A DNA stretch of 48,520 nt from a virus. A program made the position numbers and the translations under genes. The stretch lies in the IMG/VR virus record IMGVR_UViG_3300050821_005219, positions 1-48,520 of that record. One strand, given 5' to 3'. Shown here piece after piece: positions 3,001 through 45,845 of the stretch (position 1 is its first letter; each line of letters begins with the position of its first letter). The notes under the pieces are model-generated. The model saw only the letters and a program-made list of their open reading frames with translations, was not told where the DNA came from and did no database searches.

Positions 3001-6000
3001 GTCACCGACAGTGGTGCCGTTCCAATGGCGATGTTGGATATAAGTTGCGTTGCCGTCAGGGTGCTCGGCAGTGACATTGCCCCGCCAGCACTCAGGATTG
3101 CTGTAGCTGAAGGCGTCTGGGGAGCCGCGCCAACACCACCACCAGTCATAATGGCATTCGCTGCCAAGAGAGCGGAAACTGATTCCACGGTCGTTGAGCT
3201 AAAATAAGGAATGGCTCCGGAGACTCCTCCAGTGACAGTTATAGGGAAGGCTGGCGTTCCGCCGCCACTGGAGGTCGTGCCGCAGGTGATTGTGTGCGCG
3301 GCTGTTGTGTAATTGAAATGATTCCCTCCTGAATCGGGACAGTTGGGAAGGGATATCCACTGGCCAACTGCGGAGGCGCTTGTGTTAATAATTTGGTCCG
3401 CAGCGGAGTTCACTGGAATAGAGGTTCCATTAATTTTAGTATTCGTCATCACTCCACCAGCGGTCATGGAGGAGTCGCCGGTGACAGGGAAAGGTGCGGG
3501 GAGGTTGCCAGCAGTACCTATCCAAATATCCGTATTGGCTAAGGTCGCGGCGATGGGTTGAGAGCTTGAATTGGAACCGACAACGGTTGCGGAAGCCGGG
3601 AAAGCGCCTCCGTTAATTTTTCCCACGACGTTCGCCGTGCTGATACCTGTTACGTCACCAGTTAGTTGGTTAACGTGTGTTCGGGACCAAACTCCCGACG
3701 ATGTATCCACAAGAGACGCAACGGCATACTGGACAGTAAGCGCGGGACTTAAAGTTGTCTGTCCATCAATGAGGTCCGTACTGGCGCGAGTCGGCGTACA
3801 GGCGTTGGCAGTGGAATCTATTTTCTTAAATGTTATTTGCCGACCACCTCCACTGGACGCGGGAAGGTTAATCACTACCGCACCACTTGTGGCGTCACAG
3901 GTGATGACCGTATCAGCGGCCAAGACGGTATAAGGTGAGGATGCGAAATTTATGGCCGTCTCGGTCCAGTGAGGTTGTTTGACGAGTGTCGCGCAGGAAC
4001 CTGCTGATGTTGTTACGTCACCTGTCAATGCTGGCAGTTGACCGCAAGTAGCAGACCCGGACAAGTTTGTGAATGCAGGCTGAGCGAGAGAAACGACACC
4101 CGCTGCCGAGATGGCTGTCACGAAATTGTTAGCCGAGCCTGTGTTGGCTACGACTGTTGTACCTATGGTTCCCGAGGCGTTTATATCGTGAAATCGTAAA
4201 TTGGTGGAGTCTTCATATAGCGTATCGAATCCAGCCGCAGGCGCAGCGGGAGCAACGATGGCCGTCAAAAGAGGATTGGTTCCATTTGACGTGAAATTTG
4301 TGATACCTCCGAGAGCGGTAGAGTTATTGTACTGAATTTGGGTATTGGACCCACCAGCGGAGGCCGAACCAGTGATGGACTGACAACCGAATCCGGTTGT
4401 GGTGGACCAACTTAATGCTTGAGTGGAGCTGCCGCAATTGGAACCGAACGCCGCAAAGGTAGGGAACTTAACTGTCCACCAGTGTCCCGGAGCTGAAGTT
4501 GAATCCTGATAGACAAAGGCGGCGAAATTTGGGATGAGTGTCCCGGACGCCGCACTGTCAATCAGGTCCGAGGCACCAACGTTTGGAGTCAATGTCAGTG
4601 TGGTCGAAGTGTTCTTAATGACGAATGGGAAGTTGGAGGCAAAATTTGTAGCTACCGCAGGTAAAGCCAACGCTGTCCCGCTTGTCCAGTTGAGGTAGTT
4701 CGCCCGGTCAGTGTATAGCAATGTAGCCGGGTTCGTCGCGTCCACTGGCACGCCCGGAAGGGAAAAAGTTTCAGCGGTAGCCGCGCCGCCGGAAACGTTT
4801 TCCGTGACCGTATATAAACCATTGACCGTGGGGCCAGCGAGACGTGTGGCGGCTCCTGCTGACCCTCCGTAAATCATGTCTCCCAAGGTCGTCATTGGAT
4901 TCGTAAAGGAATTGGCGAGCACGAAGGCATCGGTGGCGAGTTTAGTTGTATTATCTCCGGGAGATTGCGTCGTGGCTGTCGTGCCATTTGGAAGGGCGGG
5001 AGTGCCGGAAAGGTTGGCTGCGGTACCAGTCGTATTCTGATTCAGCGTCGCAACGTGACCGGCAGTTATAGTTCCGCTGACCTCACAGGGAATAACGTTG
5101 ATGGTCGAAACGAGTGTTGGCGTGCAGATGAGACCGGTAACGTTCGTTGTACTCGTTTGGAGGTTTAGTCCGGCACTGGATAGTGGAGTGCCGTTGATGG
5201 CTGGCGTGAATCCGCCGCCCGTGGCTGCGATGGTGGGTCCGAACTGTCCTCTGGTAATCGTGATATTGGACCCGGCAACGAATGGTGCATCATGGCATTC
5301 CGCGTCCCATTGCGTGGTGACGACGGTATCCACAGTGAGACGGCAGGACTGGCCTTGGGCGATAACTAAACTAGCCCCTCCTGGAGAGACGGTCCAAGTT
5401 GTGGGAGTGACGGTGACAGCGGTAGCCGAACCACTTGTGTTATTGACGAGACTGAGGACACAGTTGGGGAGAGCGAGAGTAGTGGCTGTAGGGAGAGTGA
5501 CGGCCACGGCCACGCTGCCTTGATATTCCACAACTTTAGGACTGCAATCGGCGGAAGCGATGGTATCGGTGGAAGTGGTTCCCGTGACCGGGCGAGTGAC
5601 CATACCAGGGAGAGCAAAGGCAGGAGTAGTCCCAACACCGCCAGAGGGAATGGAAACGAATGCCTGAGCGACACCATTAGGACCAGTGGGAGCGTTTACG
5701 CCGCTTAGGACGTTGGTGGTGCCCGCAGTGGAGTAGTAGGGAACGCTGAATTGGAGAGCGTTGTTGACGGTGCCACTCCCCCCGCCGCCCGCAGGCGTGG
5801 CCCATGTCCCATCACCGCGCCAGAAGGTCGTACCGGAAGCTCCTGTTCCACTGTTCATCTGCGAGACAGAGATATTCCCACTGAGTTGTGCGAAGCTGTA
5901 GTCGTTAGTAGCGGCGACTACGGCTCCAGTACGGCCAAAGACACTGGATACCGCTCCCCCTCCACCTGCCGCAGCCACACTGGAACTCTGAATCCACTTG

Positions 6001-6341
6001 GACGATAGGGAGTTATAGACGAATGAGATACTCTGATTCGCGGCACAGATGAAGTTACTCCCGCTGGCCATCACGATGTTGGCGTTGTTGGCGAAGGTCG
6101 TGTTGGTATCGCCGCAGAGGATGATGAGAAAGGGAGCGCCGAAGGGATTGAGAAAATTAGTGACAGTCGTGGGACTGCCGTTGGCGGTGATGAACACGTT
6201 TCCTTGGGAGACATCTGGCGTGGCTCCGGTCATCGTCAACGCGCCGGTGTTCGAGAATTGATTGGCGACAATCCGACCGTGTTGTGTCCCTTGGCCAAAT
6301 ACTGCCGAAGGCAGGATTAGAAACAGAAGGAGTCGTTTCAT
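1..6341 (-). CDS. giant tail fibre/tailspike protein, C-terminus beyond the left edge
   Basis: One reading frame is open from the ATG at 6341-6339 to the window edge (2113 codons, no stop seen), so the gene is partial. Residues 1-17 (MKRLLLFLILPSAVFGQ) look like a Sec signal peptide. Residues about 18-1330 are low-complexity Thr/Ser/Gly/Asn-rich beta repeats with TGDVT-type motifs typical of phage fibres. At about residue 1335 a WWGAKGDNSTDDTAAIQ motif marks a Pectate_lyase_3-type beta-helix, followed by beta-strand-rich sequence. Residues about 1815-1895 are Gly/Ala-rich, collagen-like in composition. The last visible residues (SFVCHGSYSQATAAANFFGI) begin a compact C-terminal domain, probably receptor binding. 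The start overlaps the upstream stop as TAATG, so the two fibre genes are likely translationally coupled. Role inferred: host adsorption or surface polysaccharide binding. The signal peptide is the odd point. Confidence 0.85.
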   Translation of the reverse strand, partial: MKRLLLFLILPSAVFGQGTQHGRIVANQFSNTGALTMTGATPDVSQGNVFITANGSPTTVTNFLNPFGAPFLIILCGDTNTTFANNANIVMASGSNFICAANQSISFVYNSLSSKWIQSSSVAAAGGGGAVSSVFGRTGAVVAATNDYSFAQLSGNISVSQMNSGTGASGTTFWRGDGTWATPAGGGGSGTVNNALQFSVPYYSTAGTTNVLSGVNAPTGPNGVAQAFVSIPSGGVGTTPAFALPGMVTRPVTGTTSTDTIASADCSPKVVEYQGSVAVAVTLPTATTLALPNCVLSLVNNTSGSATAVTVTPTTWTVSPGGASLVIAQGQSCRLTVDTVVTTQWDAECHDAPFVAGSNITITRGQFGPTIAATGGGFTPAINGTPLSSAGLNLQTSTTNVTGLICTPTLVSTINVIPCEVSGTITAGHVATLNQNTTGTAANLSGTPALPNGTTATTQSPGDNTTKLATDAFVLANSFTNPMTTLGDMIYGGSAGAATRLAGPTVNGLYTVTENVSGGAATAETFSLPGVPVDATNPATLLYTDRANYLNWTSGTALALPAVATNFASNFPFVIKNTSTTLTLTPNVGASDLIDSAASGTLIPNFAAFVYQDSTSAPGHWWTVKFPTFAAFGSNCGSSTQALSWSTTTGFGCQSITGSASAGGSNTQIQYNNSTALGGITNFTSNGTNPLLTAIVAPAAPAAGFDTLYEDSTNLRFHDINASGTIGTTVVANTGSANNFVTAISAAGVVSLAQPAFTNLSGSATCGQLPALTGDVTTSAGSCATLVKQPHWTETAINFASSPYTVLAADTVITCDATSGAVVINLPASSGGGRQITFKKIDSTANACTPTRASTDLIDGQTTLSPALTVQYAVASLVDTSSGVWSRTHVNQLTGDVTGISTANVVGKINGGAFPASATVVGSNSSSQPIAATLANTDIWIGTAGNLPAPFPVTGDSSMTAGGVMTNTKINGTSIPVNSAADQIINTSASAVGQWISLPNCPDSGGNHFNYTTAAHTITCGTTSSGGGTPAFPITVTGGVSGAIPYFSSTTVESVSALLAANAIMTGGGVGAAPQTPSATAILSAGGAMSLPSTLTATQLISNIAIGTAPLSVTSTTVVPNLNVSQLLGSTWAVPPAIGSTTPAVGTFTTLSSSALEGCQHVNALQSFAQALTAVSNPGCIAIDPGTYTLAANPTVPAGVNLISESGGVLSVPNTVTLTVNGGLVAPPVQIISNTPQVATITNFAITSNVVTFLATNTFTAGEVVYVNGLTTATYLNGCGLIVIATGLSGSQFEANLVSPCTHANVTSTADSGTATQIPMVVSGSVQTANLYPQWWGAKGDNSTDDTAAIQASEVAAIAPASTQVLPVIFPSANYKVVSALMWSPYVPAVALGRVFLNTALASGTFVSISDQYGSPAPNPTGIGSTRSVPFRGNFQFHNTNAANTTFAFLIGGTSAAYTSSESTLDGIGVQGFLSGVFVFGYRSVGVHITNCFTLNNGGPQISVLSGATGFGESLTFDSCIFGEDTGFATPGYLISWNTATADDFYFTGCSFDYLLGISDPAQTAALTSVNISGAHFEWNETTAPYIQAANGINIKILNSKFFSPLTTGFFNPFVGKVTGASTLSITNGRYEFGGVATNFFDNASATAGNLLYLDLQLNSSTTPTTYFTLTGGVGLANVVFDGVPTAGVSTVDLSNYSIGLSNIYLGGHPAGANVAQFQFNSSTVAGVAGTNYTLFRSGVAATEGHSSTGDLGLAGRLGLAEIAAPTPVLSSEDVYADSTTHAVTIQALAPASVATTPGTAAPTVFVVPGVTGGATTNASGTGGKGSTPSIAGGTGGAASGATASTGGAGGDILLPAGNGGAGAGTGVNSNGGSIIVTPGTPGTGGSGTAGKAGVLSVLGTTAGFVGFTQGSTNTTANTNIPANTIIEQAPTSVTAYSLTLPGAAATGFPIWSNSSGVVTESITTQLQFSAPTLTVGLAGTSSGILALAGSTSGSATLTAPAVAGTSTNPITISNSLQLASGTVYNWNADTGLSRDAAGVVDVGNGTAGNSSAFIRTGNTVQVASNFTTASTSLVTITGLTWTLPATNHNYSFVCHGSYSQATAAAANFFGIQ

Positions 6342-31906: not shown

Positions 31907-32118
31907 TGGTCGATGAGGTCATCCCCAAGGACCCTAATGAAACTTGGGAAACTTGTCCTCTTTCCACCCTCCTCAACCGTATCCAACGTCTCACTCACGC
32001 TTTGAGATTCTGCCGTGGACGAGCGGCTGACCTCTATCCACATACGTTCCTTGAGCGTTCTCGGCTAATAGATATCTACACCCGTCGCATCATCAAACGT
32101 GACTATCCAAGTGAATAG
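31906..32118 (+). CDS. small hypothetical protein
   Basis: 70 aa. Its ATG overlaps the upstream stop (TGATG), so the two are coupled. Helical and basic in the second half (RIQRLTHALRFCRGRAADLY, RSRLIDIYTRRIIKRDYPSE). Not recognised; the basic helices could contact nucleic acid or a protein partner. Confidence 0.6.
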   Translation: MVDEVIPKDPNETWETCPLSTLLNRIQRLTHALRFCRGRAADLYPHTFLERSRLIDIYTRRIIKRDYPSE

Positions 32119-32298
32119 TACTATTACCGCTGATGGAAATATTCGTAGTTACACTAATTTTAGGGGAAAAATTACTTGGAGGAGACTGTTCCTGTCTCGA
32201 CCCCTACCTGGCTTATGTACCCCTACACTGAGGGCGGCTGAGGGTGACAGGACAGGTGATGGTGAGATTAACTAAAGTATAAACTAACGTTAGTGATA

Positions 32299-32442
32299 GT
32301 ACTGTAGGTACTGTGAGTACCGATAGTTAGTGTACTACTAAGAGTAACGAGCGTACTAGCTAGTACTAATGGTACTGATGGTCCTGTGAGTTCTGAACGT
32401 ACTGAGGGTAGTGCATCTAGTACTATGAGTACTGTGAATACT
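32299..32442. repeat. degenerate 9-bp tandem repeat tract
   Basis: GTACTGnnn-type nonamers follow each other with drift, for example GTACTAATG, GTACTGATG, GTCCTGTGA, GTTCTGAAC, GTACTGAGG from about 32364, and GTACTATGA, GTACTGTGA near the end. About a dozen units are visible, some 9 and some 10-12 bases long. No open frame spans the tract on either strand. Iteron-like or protein-binding array is possible. Confidence 0.6.
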
Positions 32443-32666
32443 AAACTCTCAATTAGAGGCGCTACAGCAAAACTTTAGACGTTGTTAAACTAATGAGTAA
32501 CTCCAATCGAATCAATAACTTGACAATTGCTACCTATCCCAGTGCAAGGTTTCTGTAAGTCACTGATAACAATGGACGTGTGAGAGTGTGGATAATCGTT
32601 AGAATATCGTTATTCTTGAGAGTAGATATTACAGTCACTATGTAAATTCGCTATAGTAATGAAGTG

Positions 32667-32804
32667 TATTAGAATCAGTAGGTTAGACGCTAGTGGGAGT
32701 TAACTCGTTTAGATTGCTATGGCGATTTTACCTAGTGAGTGTCGGGCATACCTATTAGAATCAGCAAGTTAACTGTGGATAGTGTCTTGCTACATGCCAT
32801 AGCA
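32667..32804. repeat. 19-bp direct repeat and long-range stem
   Basis: TATTAGAATCAGTAGGTTA (32667-32685) recurs at 32753-32771 with two changes, 86 bases away. The second copy lies inside a region closed by a perfect 9-bp stem, TGCTATGGC (32715-32723) with GCCATAGCA (32796-32804), which also encloses the hairpin AGCAAG (32763-32768) / CTTGCT (32786-32791). Confidence 0.5.
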
Positions 32805-33054
32805 GTAGTTTGGCCTTGTGAGAGTATCGTCCCGGATGCAATCCGCGTTCCGAGCAGGTCATGGGATAGCGGGCAGGGATGGGGTAGTTAGGTTCTCAGT
32901 CTGAGAATGCAGTCTCCCGAAGCAACCTGCTAGTCAATGGATAAGGGACCGTAGGGTAGCACGCCAAACTGAGCGCTAGGCTAAAGGTAGTCATAAATGC
33001 CCTAGTGATAATTGAGCGCAACAGATACTCGTATGGTCCGATGTAGTCTCCGGC

Positions 33055-33111
33055 CTAGTGGCAGTCTGTCACTAGCATTCGGGGGGACAAGGCGTCCGTA
33101 GCAAAACGGAC
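33055..33111 (+). ncRNA. two adjacent hairpins
   Basis: CTAGTG (33055-33060) pairs with CACTAG (33070-33075); GTCCGT (33094-33099) pairs with ACGGAC (33106-33111) around AGCAAA. No T-run follows, so they are not typical terminators. They precede the first gene of the small-gene block. Confidence 0.4.
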
Positions 33112-33782: not shown

Positions 33783-34037
33783 TTAAGGGATTGCATGGGA
33801 GGAACTAGACCATGTATACCGTAGAGAACTATAAAACAAAGAAGCAATTTCGTTTGGCTGTCGAGTCTGGAGCGAAGGTTAGGTTGTACGCACCGGGTTT
33901 GGGCAGTCCGAAGGATAATGGGATTGAATACGTGGAAGGTCCGCATTATCCAGCACCGCACACGTGGTACGCTCAGGCGACCATGGAAAACGGTGTGGTA
34001 ATCAAGGTCAAGTAGTTTCTCATAGGCAATCCCTTAA
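33783..34037. repeat. 12-bp perfect inverted repeat enclosing one gene
   Basis: TTAAGGGATTGC (33783-33794) and GCAATCCCTTAA (34026-34037) are exact complements and bracket the gene 33812-34015. As RNA they would close a 230-base loop containing the whole message. As DNA they would be a composite-element-like boundary, but no transposase is present. Confidence 0.6.
33812..34015 (+). CDS. small conserved phage protein of unknown function
   Basis: 67 aa. MYTVENYKTKKQFRLAVESG, then VRLYAPGLGSP, and YVEGPHYPAPHTWYAQATME ending VVIKVK. This wording (FkTKKalkeAv..G..v.vyqPG...P..G...vEGPHYPepH.WYA...v..G.v.kVk) belongs to a widespread small phage protein family that I recognise but cannot name; function unknown. 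GGGAGG precedes the ATG. It is the only gene here flanked by a perfect inverted repeat. Confidence 0.75.
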   Translation: MYTVENYKTKKQFRLAVESGAKVRLYAPGLGSPKDNGIEYVEGPHYPAPHTWYAQATMENGVVIKVK

Positions 34038-34070
34038 TAGAGCGTACTCAAGTGAGTATCCTCTGTTAGC

Positions 34071-34140
34071 GGAGTTAGTGGGAATAGGATTGTGAGTTTA
34101 CCAGTTCTGTATTATTTCATTCTAGTTAGACATTAACTCC
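34071..34140 (+). ncRNA. 70-nt stem-loop
   Basis: GGAGTTAGTG (34071-34080) pairs with CATTAACTCC (34131-34140) through ten positions including one G-U. A small TTAG-loop hairpin (CTCTG/CGGAG) lies just upstream and AGAGC/GCTCT (34148-34165) just downstream. Precedes a 30-aa membrane peptide gene. Confidence 0.45.
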
Positions 34141-34372: not shown

Positions 34373-34384
34373 ATATGCCGTGCA

Positions 34385-34475
34385 TCCGTTACAGTGGTCT
34401 GTCGGTATTCTGCTAGTCGAGTACCGAATGGGGAATGAATCTTACTAGGGATTCACAGATTACGACTGTAACGGA
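34385..34475 (+). ncRNA. three-way-junction element enclosing an A-type and a B-type hairpin
   Basis: TCCGTTACAGT (34385-34395) pairs exactly with ACTGTAACGGA (34465-34475). Inside, TCGGTA (34402-34407) pairs with TACCGA (34422-34427), loop TTC...GAG as in type A; GAATC (34437-34441) pairs with GATTC (34450-34454), loop TTACTAGG as in type B. A further hairpin, AGAGCA/TGCTCT (34479-34501), follows and then GGGAG and the ATG at 34517. Confidence 0.6.
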
Positions 34476-34516
34476 CGCAGAGCATATTCGTTGGTTGCTC
34501 TGGGAGAGTGGATACT

Positions 34517-34594
34517 ATGACAACGTTTGTAGTTATTAGTTTCCTCTTCCTCATGTTGATTACTAGTGAGTTAATGAGGAGGGAGGATAACTAA
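34517..34594 (+). CDS. 25-aa membrane peptide
   Basis: MTTFVVISFLFLMLITSELM then RREDN: hydrophobic helix with a charged end. GGGAGAG lies eight bases upstream. Two bases before the next gene. Real coding is inferred from the ribosome site and the hydrophobic pattern shared with other miniproteins here. Confidence 0.5.
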   Translation: MTTFVVISFLFLMLITSELMRREDN

Positions 34595-34596
34595 TT

Positions 34597-34911
34597 ATGA
34601 CATGGGAGCCTAATACACGTACGGTGGCCGATGAAGCTCAGGAATGCCTTAACGTGCAAGATGGCGTTAATGTCTCTGGGATTGTTGGGAGTCTTAACCG
34701 TGCGCTGTCTACTCTGTGGAATGAGGCGCACAGAATAGGTGAGAGTACTACATGGGTTAACACTCATCCAATCGTCGCGCTTTATCTCCATAAACTGACT
34801 CAATGTTGCGGGAGTGATAGGGATTACTCTCGTGATTACGCTGAGGTTAGGATGCTGGCTGGACATGGGGAACCTAGTCTAATGGACACTATTGAGCCAA
34901 ACGTAAGTTGA
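34597..34911 (+). CDS. hypothetical protein
   Basis: 104 aa, helical (LNVQDGVNVSGIVGSLNRAL, then SRDYAEVRMLAGHG). It reads like small proteins recording resource counts in phages but I do not recognise a family. The start follows AGGAGGGAGGATAA, partly inside the end of the 25-aa gene, suggesting coupling. Confidence 0.65.
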   Translation: MTWEPNTRTVADEAQECLNVQDGVNVSGIVGSLNRALSTLWNEAHRIGESTTWVNTHPIVALYLHKLTQCCGSDRDYSRDYAEVRMLAGHGEPSLMDTIEPNVS

Positions 34912-34923
34912 ATCCAAGTAGAT

Positions 34924-34971
34924 GCGAGAGTCATCACATTATTCATAGTTACGGGTAATGTGATGCATCGC
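34924..34971 (+). ncRNA. hairpin upstream of the 44-aa gene
   Basis: CATCACATTA (34932-34941) pairs perfectly with TAATGTGATG (34956-34965), loop TTCATAGTTACGGG; GCGA (34924-34927) and TCGC (34968-34971) extend the helix across a small internal loop. Confidence 0.5.
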
Positions 34972-35010
34972 GCACCTAGTTAGGATAGTTGGGGACGCGG
35001 GGAGACAACC

Positions 35011-35145
35011 ATGAGAGTGGGCGATAGTGACACACTCTCGTTAGTGTTCTTCCTTGAGACAGTGGGGAGAGTAGCGATGGGAACAGTTTTGTTCCTATTG
35101 TTGGTCTACTTACTGCCATTCAAGGAGAGAACAAAGGGAGAGTGA
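35011..35145 (+). CDS. 44-aa single-span membrane peptide
   Basis: Starts MRVGDSDTLSLVFFLETVGR and continues into a hydrophobic segment VAMGTVLFLLLVYLLPFKER. One membrane helix with basic C-terminal tail. GGGGAG upstream. Ends one base before the 89-aa gene, whose ribosome site lies inside its last codons. Confidence 0.55.
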   Translation: MRVGDSDTLSLVFFLETVGRVAMGTVLFLLLVYLLPFKERTKGE

Positions 35146-35146
35146 T

Positions 35147-35416
35147 ATGGCGAGACAAGTAAGCAAACTCCCTCAGATATTCAAACCCTATGACACCGTA
35201 GGTCAGATTATGGCCTATGAGAGTGGGGAATTGGATGAGGATGCGATTGTCACGTTATTCCAGCATCTTGTGGATACTGGGATGGTGTGGCAATTGCAGG
35301 GGAGTTACGGTAGGACGGCTGTCCGGTTAATGCGGGATGGGTTGATTAAAGCGCCGCAAAATGGACAGGGGAAAGTGCAGAGGGGAAGTAGGAATCCTCA
35401 CCACGTTAGCGATTAA
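35147..35416 (+). CDS. DUF7417-like small phage protein
   Basis: 89 aa. IMAYESGELDEDAIVTLFQH then LVDTGMVWQLQGSYGRTAVR: the phrases 'm.yE.GeL...e.i.LFq.LvdtG..WqLQG.YGR.A..Li..G.i' mark a small family widespread in phages (DUF7417 from memory). Function unknown. C-terminal ~20 residues are basic/Gln-rich. Coupled to the preceding membrane peptide. Confidence 0.65.
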   Translation: MARQVSKLPQIFKPYDTVGQIMAYESGELDEDAIVTLFQHLVDTGMVWQLQGSYGRTAVRLMRDGLIKAPQNGQGKVQRGSRNPHHVSD

Positions 35417-35441
35417 GTTTCCACTGATACCCATTTAACTC

Positions 35442-35496
35442 GCCGGGTTCTAGCCAGTTATACCCGGCAACGTGGAGGTGAGCGTCACCTAACTGG
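35442..35496 (+). ncRNA. candidate H-type pseudoknot
   Basis: GCCGGGT (35442-35448) pairs with ACCCGGC (35462-35468). The loop contains CCAGTTA (35454-35460), which is the exact complement of TAACTGG (35490-35496) downstream, and AGGTGA (35476-35481) pairs with TCACCT (35485-35490) in between. Crossing pairings of seven bases each suggest a pseudoknot or a switch between two folds. Confidence 0.5.
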
Positions 35497-35517
35497 TATG
35501 GGAATAGTGGACAGTGG

Positions 35518-35548
35518 GTGTCCCATTTGGGGTCCGAAAGTGGGACAC
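35518..35548 (+). ncRNA. type-A hairpin
   Basis: GTGTCCCA (35518-35525) pairs with TGGGACAC (35541-35548); loop TTTGGGGTCCGAAAG. Has the type-A rule: closing CA/TG, loop beginning TT and ending AG. Confidence 0.6.
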
Positions 35549-35591
35549 ACAATGTTCATTAGGCAATGTGGACAGAGTGAGTGGAGACACT

Positions 35592-35759
35592 ATGACAAAG
35601 ACTCGCAAGCATACCACGGCTCAGGCAGCGAAAGCGGCTCAGGGAGCACACGCGGAGACGCAACCGACGCCGGAACAGCAGGCGCAGTTTAACGATGCGC
35701 TAAATCGGTACCTGAGTGACCCGGACAATGGGACGGATGAGGACCCTCTCGGGGAGTAA
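35592..35759 (+). CDS. small hypothetical protein
   Basis: 55 aa from ATG 35592, preceded by GTGGAG; a frame-extending ATG at 35514 falls in the hairpin region. Ala/Gln/Thr-rich helix (TTAQAAKAAQGAHAETQPTP) and acidic end (DPDNGTDEDPLGE). Not recognised. Confidence 0.5.
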   Translation: MTKTRKHTTAQAAKAAQGAHAETQPTPEQQAQFNDALNRYLSDPDNGTDEDPLGE

Positions 35760-35776
35760 GAGAGAGTGATTAGTGG

Positions 35777-35825
35777 GATGCCCATTAGAGATAGTGGGCA
35801 TCACGATACTTACTCTATAAGTATC
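35777..35825 (+). ncRNA. type-A plus type-B hairpin pair
   Basis: A: GATGCCCA (35777-35784) with TGGGCATC (35795-35802), loop TTAGAGATAG. B: GATACTTA (35805-35812) with TAAGTATC (35818-35825). AAGGAG follows directly and the ATG is at 35836. The clearest copy of the module, with perfect stems. Confidence 0.7.
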
Positions 35826-35835
35826 AAGGAGAATT

Positions 35836-36057
35836 ATGGAAACGAAGACAGCAACGACGGAGAAATTGGAGCAATTGCAGTCGGCGGGAGTTGTGGCCGC
35901 GTTGAAGGAATTATCAGAGCGGCCTGTTCCGAAGATTGCGGAGGATGTGAGATATCAAGAAACCGTGAGTTGTGACAATCACAACTGGCGGCGGGAGATT
36001 CTTCCCGGTGCGGGGAAGTTTGGACCGTGGGAAGATTTGGGACCGCGCAAGAGGTAA
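35836..36057 (+). CDS. small hypothetical protein
   Basis: 73 aa. Helical start (TEKLEQLQSAGVVAALKELS), then a segment with CDNHNWRREILPGAGKF. Not recognised. Start supported by AAGGAG seven bases upstream. Confidence 0.6.
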   Translation: METKTATTEKLEQLQSAGVVAALKELSERPVPKIAEDVRYQETVSCDNHNWRREILPGAGKFGPWEDLGPRKR

Positions 36058-36070
36058 GTTATTCCAGTAG

Positions 36071-36116
36071 GGCACTGGAGACAGTGCCTCTCTGAAATCA
36101 CTTACGTTAGGGTGAT
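36071..36116 (+). ncRNA. GAGA-tetraloop hairpin plus type-B hairpin
   Basis: GGCACTG (36071-36077) with CAGTGCC (36082-36088) closes a GAGA (GNRA-class) tetraloop. ATCAC (36097-36101) with GTGAT (36112-36116) closes loop TTACGTTAGG (type B). GGGAGG follows and the start codon is 36129. Confidence 0.6.
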
Positions 36117-36128
36117 GGGAGGTGAGTA

Positions 36129-36401
36129 GTGGAAGGAATGAGACAGGCGACGTTAGAGGAGTTATTAGCGTGTCGCCGGGAGTATAGGAAGGTTAAGTCT
36201 CTAACCTTGGATAAGGTGGCTTGGAAGAGGGATAAGATTGCCCTTAACTTGGCTATCGAACATGCTAAACAAGGGAAGCCAGTGTATATCCAAGAGAGTT
36301 TAGGGGATGGGGAGAGGTATTACTATCTTCTGGCAAACGAGGGTGACGCTACAACGGAGTTACATGCTCCAGTATGTGCGAGTTATATTGCGAATAAGTG
36401 A
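36129..36401 (+). CDS. hypothetical protein
   Basis: 90 aa. GTG start after GGGAGGTG; an ATG at 36138 has its purine run too close. Basic helical start (LEELLACRREYRKVKSLTLD), then beta (YYYLLANEGDATTELHAPVC). Not recognised. Confidence 0.6.
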   Translation: MEGMRQATLEELLACRREYRKVKSLTLDKVAWKRDKIALNLAIEHAKQGKPVYIQESLGDGERYYYLLANEGDATTELHAPVCASYIANK

Positions 36402-36408
36402 TTCGCTC

Positions 36409-36453
36409 GTGGGCATTCGGGGAGAGTGCTCACTGTGGGACTTACTTAGTCTC
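36409..36453 (+). ncRNA. type-A plus type-B hairpin pair
   Basis: A: GTGGGCA (36409-36415) with TGCTCAC (36427-36433), one G-U, loop TTCGGGGAGAG. B: GGGAC (36437-36441) with GTCTC (36449-36453), loop TTACTTA. Ribosome site GGGAG follows; ATG at 36466. Confidence 0.65.
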
Positions 36454-36465
36454 GGGAGAGTGATT

Positions 36466-36780
36466 ATGCAAATGATTACCAAGGAGATTGAGAGTAAGTT
36501 ACTCAAGTCTCCGCTGTATTCCACTGAGAAGGTGAATCCTGTCCCAGTGATAGTTAAATTCTTCACACCGTGGAGTTATTGGACGTGGTACGCGGTGGAG
36601 GGGAATAAGGTCAATGGGGATTGGGAGTTCTTTGGATTGGTGGAAGGACACGAAAAGGAACTGGGGAACTTTCTGCTGTCTGAATTGGAGTCAGTGAGGG
36701 GACCTGGGGGACTCAAGATTGAACGTGACCGTTACTTTGAAGGTCACACTCTGGATAAATTGACGAATACGGTTAAGTAA
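36466..36780 (+). CDS. DUF2958-like protein
   Basis: 104 aa from ATG 36466. ITKEIESKLLKSPLYSTEKV, then VKFFTPWSYWTWYAVEGNKV and DWEFFGLVEGHEKELGNFLL followed by SELESVRGP match the DUF2958 signature (kvvvKfFtPwsnWTWYa.Egek...D..FFGlV.G.E.ElGyFsLsELe.vrgp.Gl.iERD). These proteins occur on plasmids and phages; function unknown. Preceded by a complete A/B hairpin pair. Confidence 0.8.
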   Translation: MQMITKEIESKLLKSPLYSTEKVNPVPVIVKFFTPWSYWTWYAVEGNKVNGDWEFFGLVEGHEKELGNFLLSELESVRGPGGLKIERDRYFEGHTLDKLTNTVK

Positions 36781-36787
36781 TCCGCAG

Positions 36788-36842
36788 ACTGCCCATTAGA
36801 AATTAGTGGGTAGTATGAGTGTTACTTATATTTCGTGGTGAC
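36788..36842 (+). ncRNA. type-A plus type-B hairpin pair
   Basis: A: ACTGCCCA (36788-36795) with TGGGTAGT (36807-36814), one G-U, loop TTAGAAATTAG. B: GTTAC (36821-36825) with GTGAC (36838-36842), one G-U, loop TTATATTTCGTG. GGGAG and ATG 36857 follow. Confidence 0.6.
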
Positions 36843-36856
36843 ATTCGGGAGAGTAT

Positions 36857-36994
36857 ATGCCAACATGGATAGTCTCCATATTGGAGGGTAGCGCGTTGCT
36901 GGTACTGGGAGGAATAGCGGTATCGGTGATAGGCGTGATTCTCATGTATGGAACGGAAGGGATTGAGGTCTATGAGTTATACGGAAGCAAGTAA
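36857..36994 (+). CDS. 45-aa single-span membrane peptide
   Basis: MPTWIVSILEGSALLVLGGI then AVSVIGVILMYGTEGIEVYE: a long hydrophobic segment and a polar tail. GGGAGAG precedes. Overlaps the start of the next gene in another frame. Confidence 0.55.
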   Translation: MPTWIVSILEGSALLVLGGIAVSVIGVILMYGTEGIEVYELYGSK

Positions 36995-37130
36995 GGGGTG
37001 GTGGGAGAGAGTGATTGAGAGATTACGCTCTGCTAGACCGGACCCGGATGACGATGGGAGTGGGGACGTGGAGGACGTGGACGATGCGGTGGATTACCGC
37101 GACGCCTATAGGGATAACTTTCACAGTTAA
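36972..37130 (+). CDS. small acidic protein
   Basis: 52 aa from ATG 36972 (GAGG just upstream); an ATG 24 bases earlier is possible. MSYTEASKGWWERVIERLRS then an Asp-rich tail DPDDDGSGDVEDVDDAVDYR. The acidic tail could mimic DNA or bind a basic partner, but no family is recognised. Confidence 0.5.
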   Translation: MSYTEASKGWWERVIERLRSARPDPDDDGSGDVEDVDDAVDYRDAYRDNFHS

Positions 37131-37142
37131 AGTGATTCGCTA

Positions 37143-37266
37143 CACGTCCCTTCTCTTGGATGGCCATATCAGTGAGCGCTAGTAATAACGGGACGATTAT
37201 TCATGCCGTCGCCTGTATGGCTGTCCAAGTGAGGGGACGTGGGGAGACTCGCTTTGTAGGGAGTCT
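37143..37266 (+). ncRNA. 99-nt element closed by a 26-position helix, plus hairpin
   Basis: 37143-37168 pairs with 37216-37241 through 26 positions: 22 Watson-Crick, three G-U, one T-T mismatch. An inner hairpin AATAA/TTATT (37184-37201) lies in the loop. A second hairpin AGACTC (37245-37250) with GAGTCT (37261-37266) follows, then AGGGAG and the ATG at 37281. Placed like the A/B modules but far longer. Confidence 0.65.
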
Positions 37267-37280
37267 AGAGGGAGATAGAT

Positions 37281-37619
37281 ATGGAAACTAGTTTGAAGCT
37301 GGCTATCGAGTCGGCGTTGATTGAGGCTGGGAAGGCTCATCATAACCTTGTGGAGAACATGAAGGCTGAGGGACGTTCAGTGGATGAGATTAATAGGGAG
37401 AATGTCTCGTGGCCGGAGTTCTACGCGGAGTTTGTGGCGAGACGATTGTATCCAACGATTGTAGGGATGCAAGCGGCGTGTCCAGTTCATCAGGTGACAC
37501 ATGAGGTTAACCATGGTTGGGTGAATCCTAGTGATTCGCCTAAACGGGATTATCCTAGTCCGGCTTATGTGGGGACGGAATGGATAGGGAGGAATTGCCA
37601 TGACGACGGAACGTGCTGA
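37281..37619 (+). CDS. hypothetical protein
   Basis: 112 aa. METSLKLAIESALIEAGKAH and VSWPEFYAEFVARRLYPTIV, then CPVHQVTHEVNHGWV and a Cys-rich end. The N-terminal half is helical; several Cys/His in the C-terminal half could bind zinc. Not recognised. AGGGAG lies upstream. Confidence 0.6.
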   Translation: METSLKLAIESALIEAGKAHHNLVENMKAEGRSVDEINRENVSWPEFYAEFVARRLYPTIVGMQAACPVHQVTHEVNHGWVNPSDSPKRDYPSPAYVGTEWIGRNCHDDGTC

Positions 37620-37695
37620 GTCTATTTTGAAACGAGTGTTTTGGTGGTTAGTCGCTGGGTACGCTGCGTTGGCGTATTACCGGATATATATGTGA
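37600..37695 (+). CDS. 31-aa membrane peptide
   Basis: MTTERAESILKRVFWWLVAG then YAALAYYRIYM. Amphipathic start with a Trp/Tyr-rich hydrophobic helix. Start preceded by AGGGAGGAA and lies inside the end of the 112-aa gene. Confidence 0.5.
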   Translation: MTTERAESILKRVFWWLVAGYAALAYYRIYM

Positions 37696-37702
37696 TTCAC
37701 AG

Positions 37703-37750
37703 ATAGTACATTCAGTGCGAGTGTACTATATGAGACTTACATTATGTCTC
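37703..37750 (+). ncRNA. type-A plus type-B hairpin pair
   Basis: A: ATAGTACA (37703-37710) with TGTACTAT (37722-37729), loop TTCAGTGCGAG. B: GAGAC (37732-37736) with GTCTC (37746-37750), loop TTACATTAT, extendable by one pair. GGGAG and ATG 37763 follow. Confidence 0.7.
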
Positions 37751-37762
37751 AGGGAGATAGTT

Positions 37763-38179
37763 ATGGAACAAATAGCTTTAATCAAGGTGTTCCTGGACAA
37801 AGATGCGGGTAAGGGAGATGGAAGCTCTTACACGCATTGGCAGACGGACAGTAACACATTTGAGATTTATCTGCGGCCTAACGCTGACAAGGCGTTTGGT
37901 AGTGCAGGGAAGGATACCGAAGACATATTCGCACACGAGTTGGGGCATGTTGTGGCGCATTTGTTCAGGACGCCTATCTCTGAACGGAGTGGATTGCCCA
38001 CTACCACGTTAGGTCAGCAATATGCTGCGGAGAAAGAGGCGTGGGGATTCTCGGAGAAGATTGTACCGGGGATTGTCAAGAGGCCGGTGTATACCGAACC
38101 CATGAATGACTTTCTGGAGGGGATGAAGGAATGGGGAGCGGATGCGTTGATGGAAGACGCGAGTGATAATTTTAAGTGA
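37763..38179 (+). CDS. HExxH metallopeptidase-like protein
   Basis: 138 aa from ATG 37763 after GGGAG. IFAHELGHVVAHLF gives a zinc-binding HExxH (H58, E59, H62), and AAEKEAWGFSEKIVPG offers a glutamate (E92) as third ligand, as in gluzincin/ImmA-like minimal peptidases. The N-terminal part is beta (TFEIYLRPNADKAF). The target is unknown; phages use small proteases to cut host repressors or stress proteins. The next gene is a paralogue. Confidence 0.7.
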   Translation: MEQIALIKVFLDKDAGKGDGSSYTHWQTDSNTFEIYLRPNADKAFGSAGKDTEDIFAHELGHVVAHLFRTPISERSGLPTTTLGQQYAAEKEAWGFSEKIVPGIVKRPVYTEPMNDFLEGMKEWGADALMEDASDNFK

Positions 38180-38186
38180 CCCGCTG

Positions 38187-38218
38187 TAGGGACATTGGTT
38201 TGGATAACAGTGTCTCTA
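38187..38218 (+). ncRNA. type-A hairpin
   Basis: TAGGGACA (38187-38194) pairs with TGTCTCTA (38211-38218), one G-U, loop TTGGTTTGGATAACAG (starts TT, ends AG). A weaker structure (CCTA/TAGG at about 38229-38242) follows in the place of type B, then AGGGAG and ATG 38264. Confidence 0.55.
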
Positions 38219-38263
38219 AGGAGAGTCGCCTAGAGGAATAGGGAGTCTCAAGGGAGAATATGG

Positions 38264-38671
38264 ATGAGGAAATTGGGAACGTTGGAAGTGTGGATAGACG
38301 AGGATTCCACTAAGTCTAGCTTCACAAAAAGGGACAATGTGACGGGAGATTACAAGATTGTCCTGAATCCCAAAGGGGATAAGGAGAGGTCGGGAGAGGA
38401 TAATACTCCCGCTGTCCTTGCTCACGAGTTGGGGCATTTTGTGGGAAGGATACTAGAGACCCCGGCGGCGATGAATAGCGGGAGATATCATTCCTCAGCG
38501 AATGACACGTTGGTAGCGGAGAAAGAAGCGTGGAAATTCGCGGATGAGATAGTGCCGGGGATATCGGAGTCCACGATAGCTAAGAAGGCGATAGGGAATT
38601 ATAGCAATATCGCTAAGAACGCCGGTCACATGCCGATGGGATTATTGATGGATTTGGGATTCATTCGTTAG
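38264..38671 (+). CDS. HExxH metallopeptidase-like protein (paralogue)
   Basis: 135 aa. VLAHELGHFVGRIL gives HExxH (H54, E55, H58) and LVAEKEAWKFADEIVPG the candidate third ligand (E88). The order of motifs, the AEKEAW words and the VPGI ending match the preceding gene, so the two arose by duplication. The N-terminal beta part (YKIVLNPKGD) also aligns with its partner (FEIYLRPNAD). The C-terminus is different: MGLLMDLGFIR instead of an acidic tail. Confidence 0.7.
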   Translation: MRKLGTLEVWIDEDSTKSSFTKRDNVTGDYKIVLNPKGDKERSGEDNTPAVLAHELGHFVGRILETPAAMNSGRYHSSANDTLVAEKEAWKFADEIVPGISESTIAKKAIGNYSNIAKNAGHMPMGLLMDLGFIR

Positions 38672-38678
38672 ACCGCTG

Positions 38679-38735
38679 TAATCTCATTCGTTGAGAGTGA
38701 GATTAAGGAGTTCTAACTCATGGATAGTGGAACTC
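38679..38735 (+). ncRNA. type-A hairpin and second stem
   Basis: A: TAATCTCA (38679-38686) with TGAGATTA (38698-38705), loop TTCGTTGAGAG. Second: GAGTTC (38708-38713) with GAACTC (38730-38735). GGGAG follows. Confidence 0.65.
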
Positions 38736-38748
38736 GGGAGAGAGATGG

Positions 38749-38991
38749 ATGGAACAGCAATTTTTGAGGCTAGAGATTATAGGACGGTTGCCCATACTGT
38801 TCCCTCTGGCCAATACAACGTGGAGGACGGAAGCGGATACGTTAATCATTACGTGTATTGATACCCAATTGGGACATTCGATGGGGTATGAGCAGCACAC
38901 GGTCTACTACGTTCCTAACGTTAATCTCAAGTATTTTGGGCCGCATGTGGAGAGGTCGAGTAGGACGGTAACAGTTCCCCAGACAGTTTAG
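38749..38991 (+). CDS. small hypothetical protein, start frame uncertain
   Basis: 80 aa from ATG 38749 (GGGAG eight bases before). An ATG at 38745 in another frame encodes a plausible 38-aa peptide (MDGTAIFEARDYRTVAHTVP...), closer to the site. The C-terminal part from MGYEQHTVYYVPNVNLKYFG looks better coding than the N-terminus, so a frameshift between the two frames is possible. Not recognised. Confidence 0.5.
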   Translation: MEQQFLRLEIIGRLPILFPLANTTWRTEADTLIITCIDTQLGHSMGYEQHTVYYVPNVNLKYFGPHVERSSRTVTVPQTV

Positions 38992-39002
38992 GGTTCAGCT
39001 TC

Positions 39003-39089
39003 ACACGGTTAGGGACGTGAATCTTAACCGTGTCGGGATGCATCCTATGTGGATTATTCATAGGTACATCAATGTAACAAAAGGTTACA
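39003..39089 (+). ncRNA. three hairpins in series
   Basis: ACACGGTTA (39003-39011) with TAACCGTGT (39025-39033); CCTATG (39044-39049) with CATAGG (39059-39064); TGTAAC (39073-39078) with GTTACA (39084-39089). AAGGAGG follows and the ATG is at 39102. Outside the A/B loop rules. Confidence 0.5.
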
Positions 39090-45590: not shown

Positions 45591-45845
45591 CAGTCTCATG
45601 GGGGTCCTCCCATGGAGGGGGGCGGCGATGAGACTGACACCACTTATCCCTTACATTCTACTGTACTTACACACAGTCTCATCCAAAGTCTCATCCCCCT
45701 ATGAGACCACATGAGACTGACATGAGACTGGTCTCAAGAGACTATAAACTATACATATGTAAGGGTTTATAAGCACGTACTCTTCCAAAGTCTCATCCAC
45801 CCACCCCCTATGGGGGGAGTGCATACGCTGGCTCCGATGAGACTG
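45591..45845. repeat. iteron-like inverted repeat cluster, candidate origin
   Basis: AGTCTCAT occurs at 45592, 45675, 45687 and 45789; its complement ATGAGACT at 45628, 45711, 45722 and 45837; near copies lie at 45701 (ATGAGACC) and 45731 (GTCTCAAGAGAC). They form inverted pairs: 45592/45628 encloses the palindrome CCTCCCATGGAGG (45607-45619), and 45789/45837 encloses CCCCCTATGGGGG (45805-45817). The gap is 279 bases between converging genes. Proximity to the helicase-like gene suggests an origin or regulator binding site; bidirectional termination is the alternative. Confidence 0.7.

Follow-up and report, generated by a model that had tools for sequence, protein, structure and literature searches.

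The T7-type processing signals cut by ribonuclease III (RNase III) are textbook material and have been described in T7-like phages, and the T7 R1.1 class comprises R0.3, R0.5, R1.1, R1.3, R4.7, R6.5 and R18.5 together with their counterparts in those phages. The R1.1 signal itself folds into a hairpin of 60 nt that has a 4/5 internal loop and is cut once (PMC6121014; PMC4858673), and its published cut at nt 5887 (PMC8708148) corresponds to TTTAT^GATT, just below CATTCGCAAGAGTG / CTCAAGGTCATTCGCAAGAGTGGCC. Here we describe hairpins that recur between the small genes of a + strand operon in a virus contig of 48,520 bases (IMG/VR record IMGVR_UViG_3300050821_005219), which was analyzed over its full length and is referred to as the window. 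These hairpins, designated type A, are very probably RNase III processing signals of the T7 R1.1 class that lie between successive genes of the operon. The best reading is that a function already known appears here in an unexpected phage, in a recognizably different layout and an unusually dense array, and this reading replaces the unknown family proposed in an initial annotation of this DNA. As in the T7 class, the elements are long imperfect intergenic hairpins between a stop codon and the next ribosome site, they are present in several copies per genome, and they have an upper stem of the form C(A/G)(U/C)U..AGUG with an internal loop or mismatches beneath it and a GUGAU-type lower stem. This phage is unrelated to T7, with different terminase, portal and head genes and no DNA match, its copies are denser (~nine in 4.4 kb), and most of its sites, where cutting is predicted by analogy, have G.A-marked 1x1 mismatches in place of the 4/5 loop.

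The window was scanned on both strands for CATT..AGTG-closed hairpins with a stem of at least 6 bp and a loop of at most 20 nt. Seven such hairpins with stems of 7-8 bp lie on the + strand at 35.5-38.7 kb (35518, 35777, 36409, 36788, 37703, 38187 and 38679), which are exactly the copies reported previously, and further + strand matches at 35553 (GU-rich and overlapping) and 10985 are weak. The looser relative noted at 34402 is also present, with a TA/TA closure and the same TT..AG as the other copies. The whole-window scan found none on the - strand. When the 15-kb early region was shuffled 100 times with dinucleotides preserved, 0.11 such hairpins arose on average and never more than 2.

While the hairpins are real, they had been drawn too small, with TT..AG as a loop. 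In all eight type A copies the TT/AG letters form a U.G and then a U-A pair, the next pair (X/X′) follows, the true loop is 4-10 nt, and the U.G is at one fixed position. Because this invariant wobble lies in the upper stem, RNA and not DNA is the relevant form. Type A is in fact the upper half of a 52-58-nt imperfect hairpin, and once its ends are set correctly, each of six among the seven main sites forms a single long hairpin of common layout: an 11-bp upper stem with invariant C-G, A-U, U.G and U-A pairs near the loop, a 1x1 mismatch (typically G.A), 2 bp, another 1x1 mismatch (typically purine.A), 1-2 bp, usually a third 1x1 mismatch, and a lower stem of 5-9 bp. In the seventh, at 36409, the upper stem measures 10 bp and the 4/5 loop resembles that of T7; this site is a single hairpin too when slightly wider limits are used. 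Position -1 is a G.A mismatch in 6/7 sites and position -4 is unpaired in 7/7 (five times G.A, once A.A and once G.G), while positions -2, -3 and -5 are paired in 7/7, 6/7 and 7/7 sites, respectively. The hairpins contain 22-27 bp, their fold z scores range from -3.2 to -6.5, and the A motif occurs on the sense strand only. The seven main sites, and a variant at 36048, lie between annotated open reading frames, with the hairpin within ~20 nt downstream of the stop codon and the lower stem beginning at or just after it. The sites are as follows, with cut positions predicted by analogy with T7 R1.1.

34386..34474, + strand: variant site read from the sequence, with an A hairpin at 34402-34427 (TA/TA, TT..AG) and a B hairpin at 34436-34455 inside a 10-bp stem CCGTTACAGT/ACTGTAACGG; the gap 34373-34517 that holds it folds at -56.9 kcal/mol
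35502..35564, + strand: RNase III-type site, 25 bp, upper stem 35518-35548, lower stem AGTGGACA/TGTTCATT, predicted cut ~35551^35552, z -5.5; included in model R3
35763..35816, + strand: RNase III-type site, 22 bp, upper stem 35777-35802, lower stem AGAGTGA/TTACTCT, predicted cut ~35805^35806, z -6.5
36048..36111, + strand: variant site, lower stem GTAAGT/ACTTAC, upper stem with a GAGA loop and without CATT..AGTG, z -5.9, weak match to model R3 (11.7 bits)
36392..36451, + strand: RNase III-type site nearest to T7 R1.1, lower stem AAGUGAUUC/GACUUACUU, GCUC/UGUGG 4/5 internal loop, upper stem 36409-36433, predicted cut ~36436^36437
36774..36828, + strand: RNase III-type site, 22 bp, lower stem TAAGTAAT/GTTACTTA, upper stem 36788-36814, predicted cut ~36817^36818, z -6.0
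37683..37748, + strand: RNase III-type site, 27 bp, upper stem 37703-37729, lower stem ATGTGA/TTACAT, predicted cut ~37732^37733, z -4.4, matches to models R1 and R2
38171..38234, + strand: RNase III-type site, 23 bp, upper stem 38187-38218, lower stem GTGAC/GTCGC, predicted cut ~38221^38222, z -3.2, match to model R1 of only 10.2 bits
38661..38723, + strand: RNase III-type site, 24 bp, upper stem 38679-38705, lower stem GTTAGA/TCTAAC, predicted cut ~38708^38709, z -5.4

The 5′ strand of the lower stem contains the stop-codon region of the upstream gene (GTGATT, GTAAT, GTGACCC, GTTAGA and AGTGGACA; also GTGA and GTAA), and the 3′ strands are ACTTAC, GTTAC, GAGTCGC, TCTAAC and TGTTCATT. This arrangement accounts for type B, which the initial annotation had treated as a second, separate hairpin. 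All six of its copies are present (six strong hairpins versus 1.1 expected per 15 kb), but their conserved TTAC belongs to the lower stem of A, whose 3′ strand it forms, and type B is mostly the 3′ half of that stem or its alternative fold. The lower stem of A and type B compete for one strand, the TTAC strand directly precedes the ribosome site, and in most of eight folds the ribosome site is single-stranded with type B folded. Outside the variant site at 34386, type B is located as follows.

35805..35825, + strand: type B hairpin, an alternative fold of the lower-stem 3′ strand, directly 5′ of the ribosome site
36097..36116, + strand: type B hairpin (alternative fold), from the type B scan
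36436..36454, + strand: type B hairpin (alternative fold), its end abutting the start of the ribosome site GGGAGAG
36820..36840, + strand: type B hairpin (alternative fold)
37731..37751, + strand: type B hairpin (alternative fold), TGAGAC/GTCTCA

The compensatory change that had been taken as the mark of a selected RNA structure is borne out by an alignment of six window sites, where 96.8% of cells are paired versus 66.9% after shuffling, both sides have changed in 16 of 21 pairs, and the covariation score is 0.93 versus 0.27. Sliding the pairing register drops pairing to 33-50%. Native 5′ and 3′ flanks also pair better than flanks swapped among sites (p 0.0004-0.002), and since swapped flanks lose pairing energy the lower stem is more than consensus complementarity. 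Generic counts of long hairpins do not distinguish the region from coding sequence, and the argument is therefore built not on hairpin density but on three things: the specific motif, the covariation and the match to T7.

That match was reached through a pattern scan of viral contigs (GTGATTCRC, CATT and AGTG with gaps), which gave 35 matches, two of them with perfect 7-bp stems that the pattern does not require and that lie between a stop codon and a ribosome site. These identified two metagenomic phage contigs, G003 and G004, the latter with three such leaders in a row. A BLAST search with a G004 leader led, weakly (E ~0.9), to gene junctions of Pantoea phage TacPo2 and Salmonella phage STSR3, and the TacPo2 leader in turn matched 1,133 phage records, mostly T7-like, at 3-6 places in many genomes. 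The matches fall at the 14/15, 18/18.5 and S-adenosylmethionine (SAM)-hydrolase junctions, which are RNase III sites in T7. Apart from R1.1, nine T7 RNase III site positions were used, which we take to be those of Dunn and Studier (1983).

Models were compared in both directions. R1 was built from 21 sites outside the window, four of which had been found via the window-derived pattern, and its best window matches are both type A sites, 36395-36448 (38.4 bits, E 1.6e-7) and 37689-37743 (21.0 bits, E 0.009). Held-out T7 sites gave comparable scores with this model (R1 21.9 bits, R6.5 45.3 bits), and the window scores are thus in the range of real T7 sites. R2, built to remove the circularity of R1 from 14 sites of T7 and T7-like phages only, places the same two window sites on top, 36396-36447 with an E of 3.7e-4 and the 37703 site with an E of 0.81, which is not significant. 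In the reverse direction, R3 was built from six window sites with 36409 left out, and its top eight matches in 480 kb are G004, TacPo2, STSR3, T7 R1.1, R0.5, R18.5, G003 and R6.5. R3 also scores a site of Vibrio phage ICP3 at 28.7 bits and recovers the held-out 36409 site (27.4 bits, E 1.3e-5). The order of stop codon, site and next gene is likewise found in ICP3, PSK8 and TacPo2. A described family therefore does exist, matching in sequence, structure, position and models in both directions, and of the readers suggested earlier for these hairpins it is a processing enzyme that the T7-type match supports. Separately, R3 has a match of 23.9 bits (E 1.6e-4) at 37504-37556, inside the coding sequence 37281-37619 and with GTGATTCGC in its 3′ half, which is possibly an intragenic site or a remnant.

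The window sites share with the class the long irregular hairpin of ~two helical turns, the intergenic position from stop codon to ribosome site and the sequence-structure profile, namely C-G, A-U/G-U, U.G/C-G and U-A pairs in the upper stem above a paired lower stem. The 4/5 asymmetric internal loop is present at 36409 (GCUC/UGUGG), and at the remaining six main sites its place is taken by spaced 1x1 mismatches, most of them G.A; T7 sites R3.8 and R13 are also without a 4/5 loop. Since the loop is found at one site and spaced mismatches at six, the window elements are called a new variant of the R1.1 class. The structure of the hairpins, their covariation, their position and their reciprocal model matches to T7 sites are direct observations. 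From these we infer RNase III binding, the position of the cut, the separation of mRNAs and the role of type B, the cut by analogy with T7 R1.1. In such a scheme, the polycistronic transcript would fold at each junction into a 52-58-nt imperfect hairpin whose duplex would be bound by host RNase III, as the record encodes no recognizable RNase III gene and the host enzyme would act, as in T7. The enzyme would make a single cut in the 3′ strand of the mismatch region, beside the -4/+4 mismatch and ~3 nt from the base of the upper stem, which would leave the upstream mRNA with a protective 3′ hairpin and the downstream mRNA with a short 5′ leader immediately before the next ribosome site. The released 3′ strand of the lower stem could then refold locally as type B into a 5′ hairpin with the ribosome site free, a step with modest support. 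It is conceivable, although rather doubtful, that the whole is a dense, self-refolding RNase III signal with a G.A-marked layout, in which one strand would pair with the upstream stop-codon region before the cut and downstream, as type B, after it. If so, each cut would part two mRNAs and at the same time turn on, or shield, the leader that follows.

Several results weigh against assignment to the R1.1 class. A model from outside the window matches only two of eight sites, and the others are linked through the window's own model, and in six of the seven main sites the middle of the hairpin is more symmetric and rich in mismatches, in place of the 4/5 loop. The four R1 sequences that came from the window-derived pattern also count here, although none of them is in R2. 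An R3 search found no such sites in the nearest structural relative, G001, and with the window model none were found in 247 genomes of the Acidobacteriota group, which is a weak guess at the host. Finally, the type B fold barely beats shuffles in stability (Stouffer z -2.1, 8 leaders).

Each of the alternatives must explain the same fixed features. That the hairpins stay uncut and are operator sites, at which an RNA-binding protein of the phage or the host controls the translation of each gene, would fit the fixed C-G, A-U, U.G and U-A pairs and the G.A mismatches, which could be protein contacts, and the TTAC strand just before the ribosome site, but the same element with the same fixed positions is an RNase III substrate in T7, T7 sites match it reciprocally, and no candidate binding protein was identified, which makes this unlikely. 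Passive mRNA stabilizers, which would block 3′ exonucleases with no specific cut, are expected after stop codons, and the hairpins do lie within ~20 nt of these; however, the lower stem extends beyond the hairpin toward the next ribosome site and covaries, and a blocker requires neither fixed mismatches nor a fixed U.G, so that such a role is likewise improbable, if anything a shade more so.

The put RNAs of HK022 are two adjacent stem-loops that act on RNA polymerase and render it resistant to terminators, and at most sites A and B, as originally drawn, are stem-loops separated by 1-5 nt. Both stems, however, compete for one strand, ~nine copies in 4.4 kb are not needed by a processive antiterminator, and the T7 match is specific, put having been compared by description only, all of which leaves antiterminators of this kind a very slim prospect. 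Least credible are DNA hairpin promoters of the kind used by the N4 virion RNA polymerase, a variant of the hairpin-dependent promoter system entertained in the initial annotation. The hairpins precede genes, as these would, but the invariant T.G and conserved G.A positions, of which U.G is a pair in RNA, are mismatches in a DNA hairpin, the loops are 4-10 nt with freely variable stems, and a promoter scan found no excess in the region (10 versus 17.5 expected). The earlier conclusion that these are not ordinary terminators stands, since no T-run follows the listed hairpins and they are absent from the six terminator-like sites found in a scan for intrinsic terminators, which likewise gave no excess. 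T4 mobile promoter/stem-loop cassettes were set aside after being considered by description, without comparison of cassette sequences.

R1.1-type sites also occur in phages that are not obviously T7-like, namely TacPo2, Escherichia phage PJNS034, STSR3, G004 and G003, where the same hairpin is found in the same place. Most of these elements, unlike those of the window, keep an ACUC-type internal loop and a GAAUCA or AUAUCA lower strand, and they are present in fewer copies. The coordinates of this non-T7 set are as follows.

R1.1-type sites, non-T7 set: L180 1569-1621 and 3236-3288; L185; L138 ~6003-6030; L136 602-2030; L135 9866-9918

Signals of the R1.1 type are seen in phages unrelated to T7, which besides the present record include two metagenomic contigs and isolates such as TacPo2 and STSR3. 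If cutting is confirmed, cleavage of a long early transcript into single-gene mRNAs by a host enzyme would be a strategy common to unrelated phages, and these sites, whose stems vary around constant pairs and mismatches, would be a natural collection from which to learn what RNase III reads.

Repeated leader elements are known from other phages as well. The SAS/ESAS elements of cluster K mycobacteriophages are repeated before small genes, some of them with inverted repeats, with SAS a conserved 13-bp GGGATAGGAGCCC repeat 3-7 bp before starts and inverted repeats of 17 bp (PMC3203893). These repeats are conserved in sequence, whereas in the window the stems vary and pairing alone is kept, and the leader sequences, read directly, do not have the SAS/ESAS pattern. 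Brevundimonas phage Bajun (Dolichocephalovirinae; L013) resembles the window in that almost all of its ~61-nt gaps carry a hairpin ahead of a ribosome site. Its leaders differ in consisting of a conserved CGTTAAGACC / GTTAAGACC, a variable hairpin, ATCAACC and the ribosome site, its hairpins gave no match to the window model, and they are a separate recurrent hairpin system.

Searches for relatives of the early region through its proteins (terminase, 4 loci and then 5 with alignment; DUF2958, 80 loci) turned up no close relatives and no hairpin array in 880 kb of other phage DNA, and those with the head protein and the metallopeptidase pair gave no loci. G001 (TerL 54% and head protein 65% identity) is without a homologous early region. 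A pattern scan of a genome collection gave 23 chance matches and no true sites. No Rfam family reached its gathering score in the window, and none matched in the T7 genome, which explains the blank result, as Rfam holds no model that detects the T7 sites.

The + strand operon that carries the hairpins encodes one DUF7417 protein, one DUF2958 protein and two metallopeptidase-like paralogues, and it faces a block of genes on the - strand for tail, head, portal and terminase proteins. The paralogues are adjacent (37763-38179 and 38264-38671), 32% identical, and have AHELGH metallopeptidase motifs with weak Peptidase_M91/Reprolysin matches. Other long hairpins lie between genes of the same region.

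34019..34082, + strand: long intergenic imperfect hairpin, 26 bp, without the A motif, possibly a further processing site, z -4.3
34919..34978, + strand: long intergenic imperfect hairpin, 22 bp, possibly a further processing site, z -5.3
37143..37241, + strand: very long intergenic hairpin ACGTCCC..GGGACGT with the AAAGTGATTCGC motif ahead, as elsewhere; gap fold -68.5 kcal/mol
38989..39047, + strand: long intergenic imperfect hairpin, 23 bp, possibly a further processing site, z -4.0

Ahead of the 35518 site, at 35440-35495, a GCCGGGT/ACCCGGC hairpin has a loop, CCAGTTA, that is complementary to TAACTGG ~30 nt downstream, a possible H-type pseudoknot. The ~1 kb at 32100-33110 is without a convincing gene and is rich in GTACT/AGTACT repeats (32270-32430). 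ATGAGAC occurs 17 times in the whole window versus 6.1 expected, and nine copies in both orientations are clustered within 250 bases (45593-45843) where the + and - gene blocks meet, in what looks like an origin or a regulatory iteron cluster.

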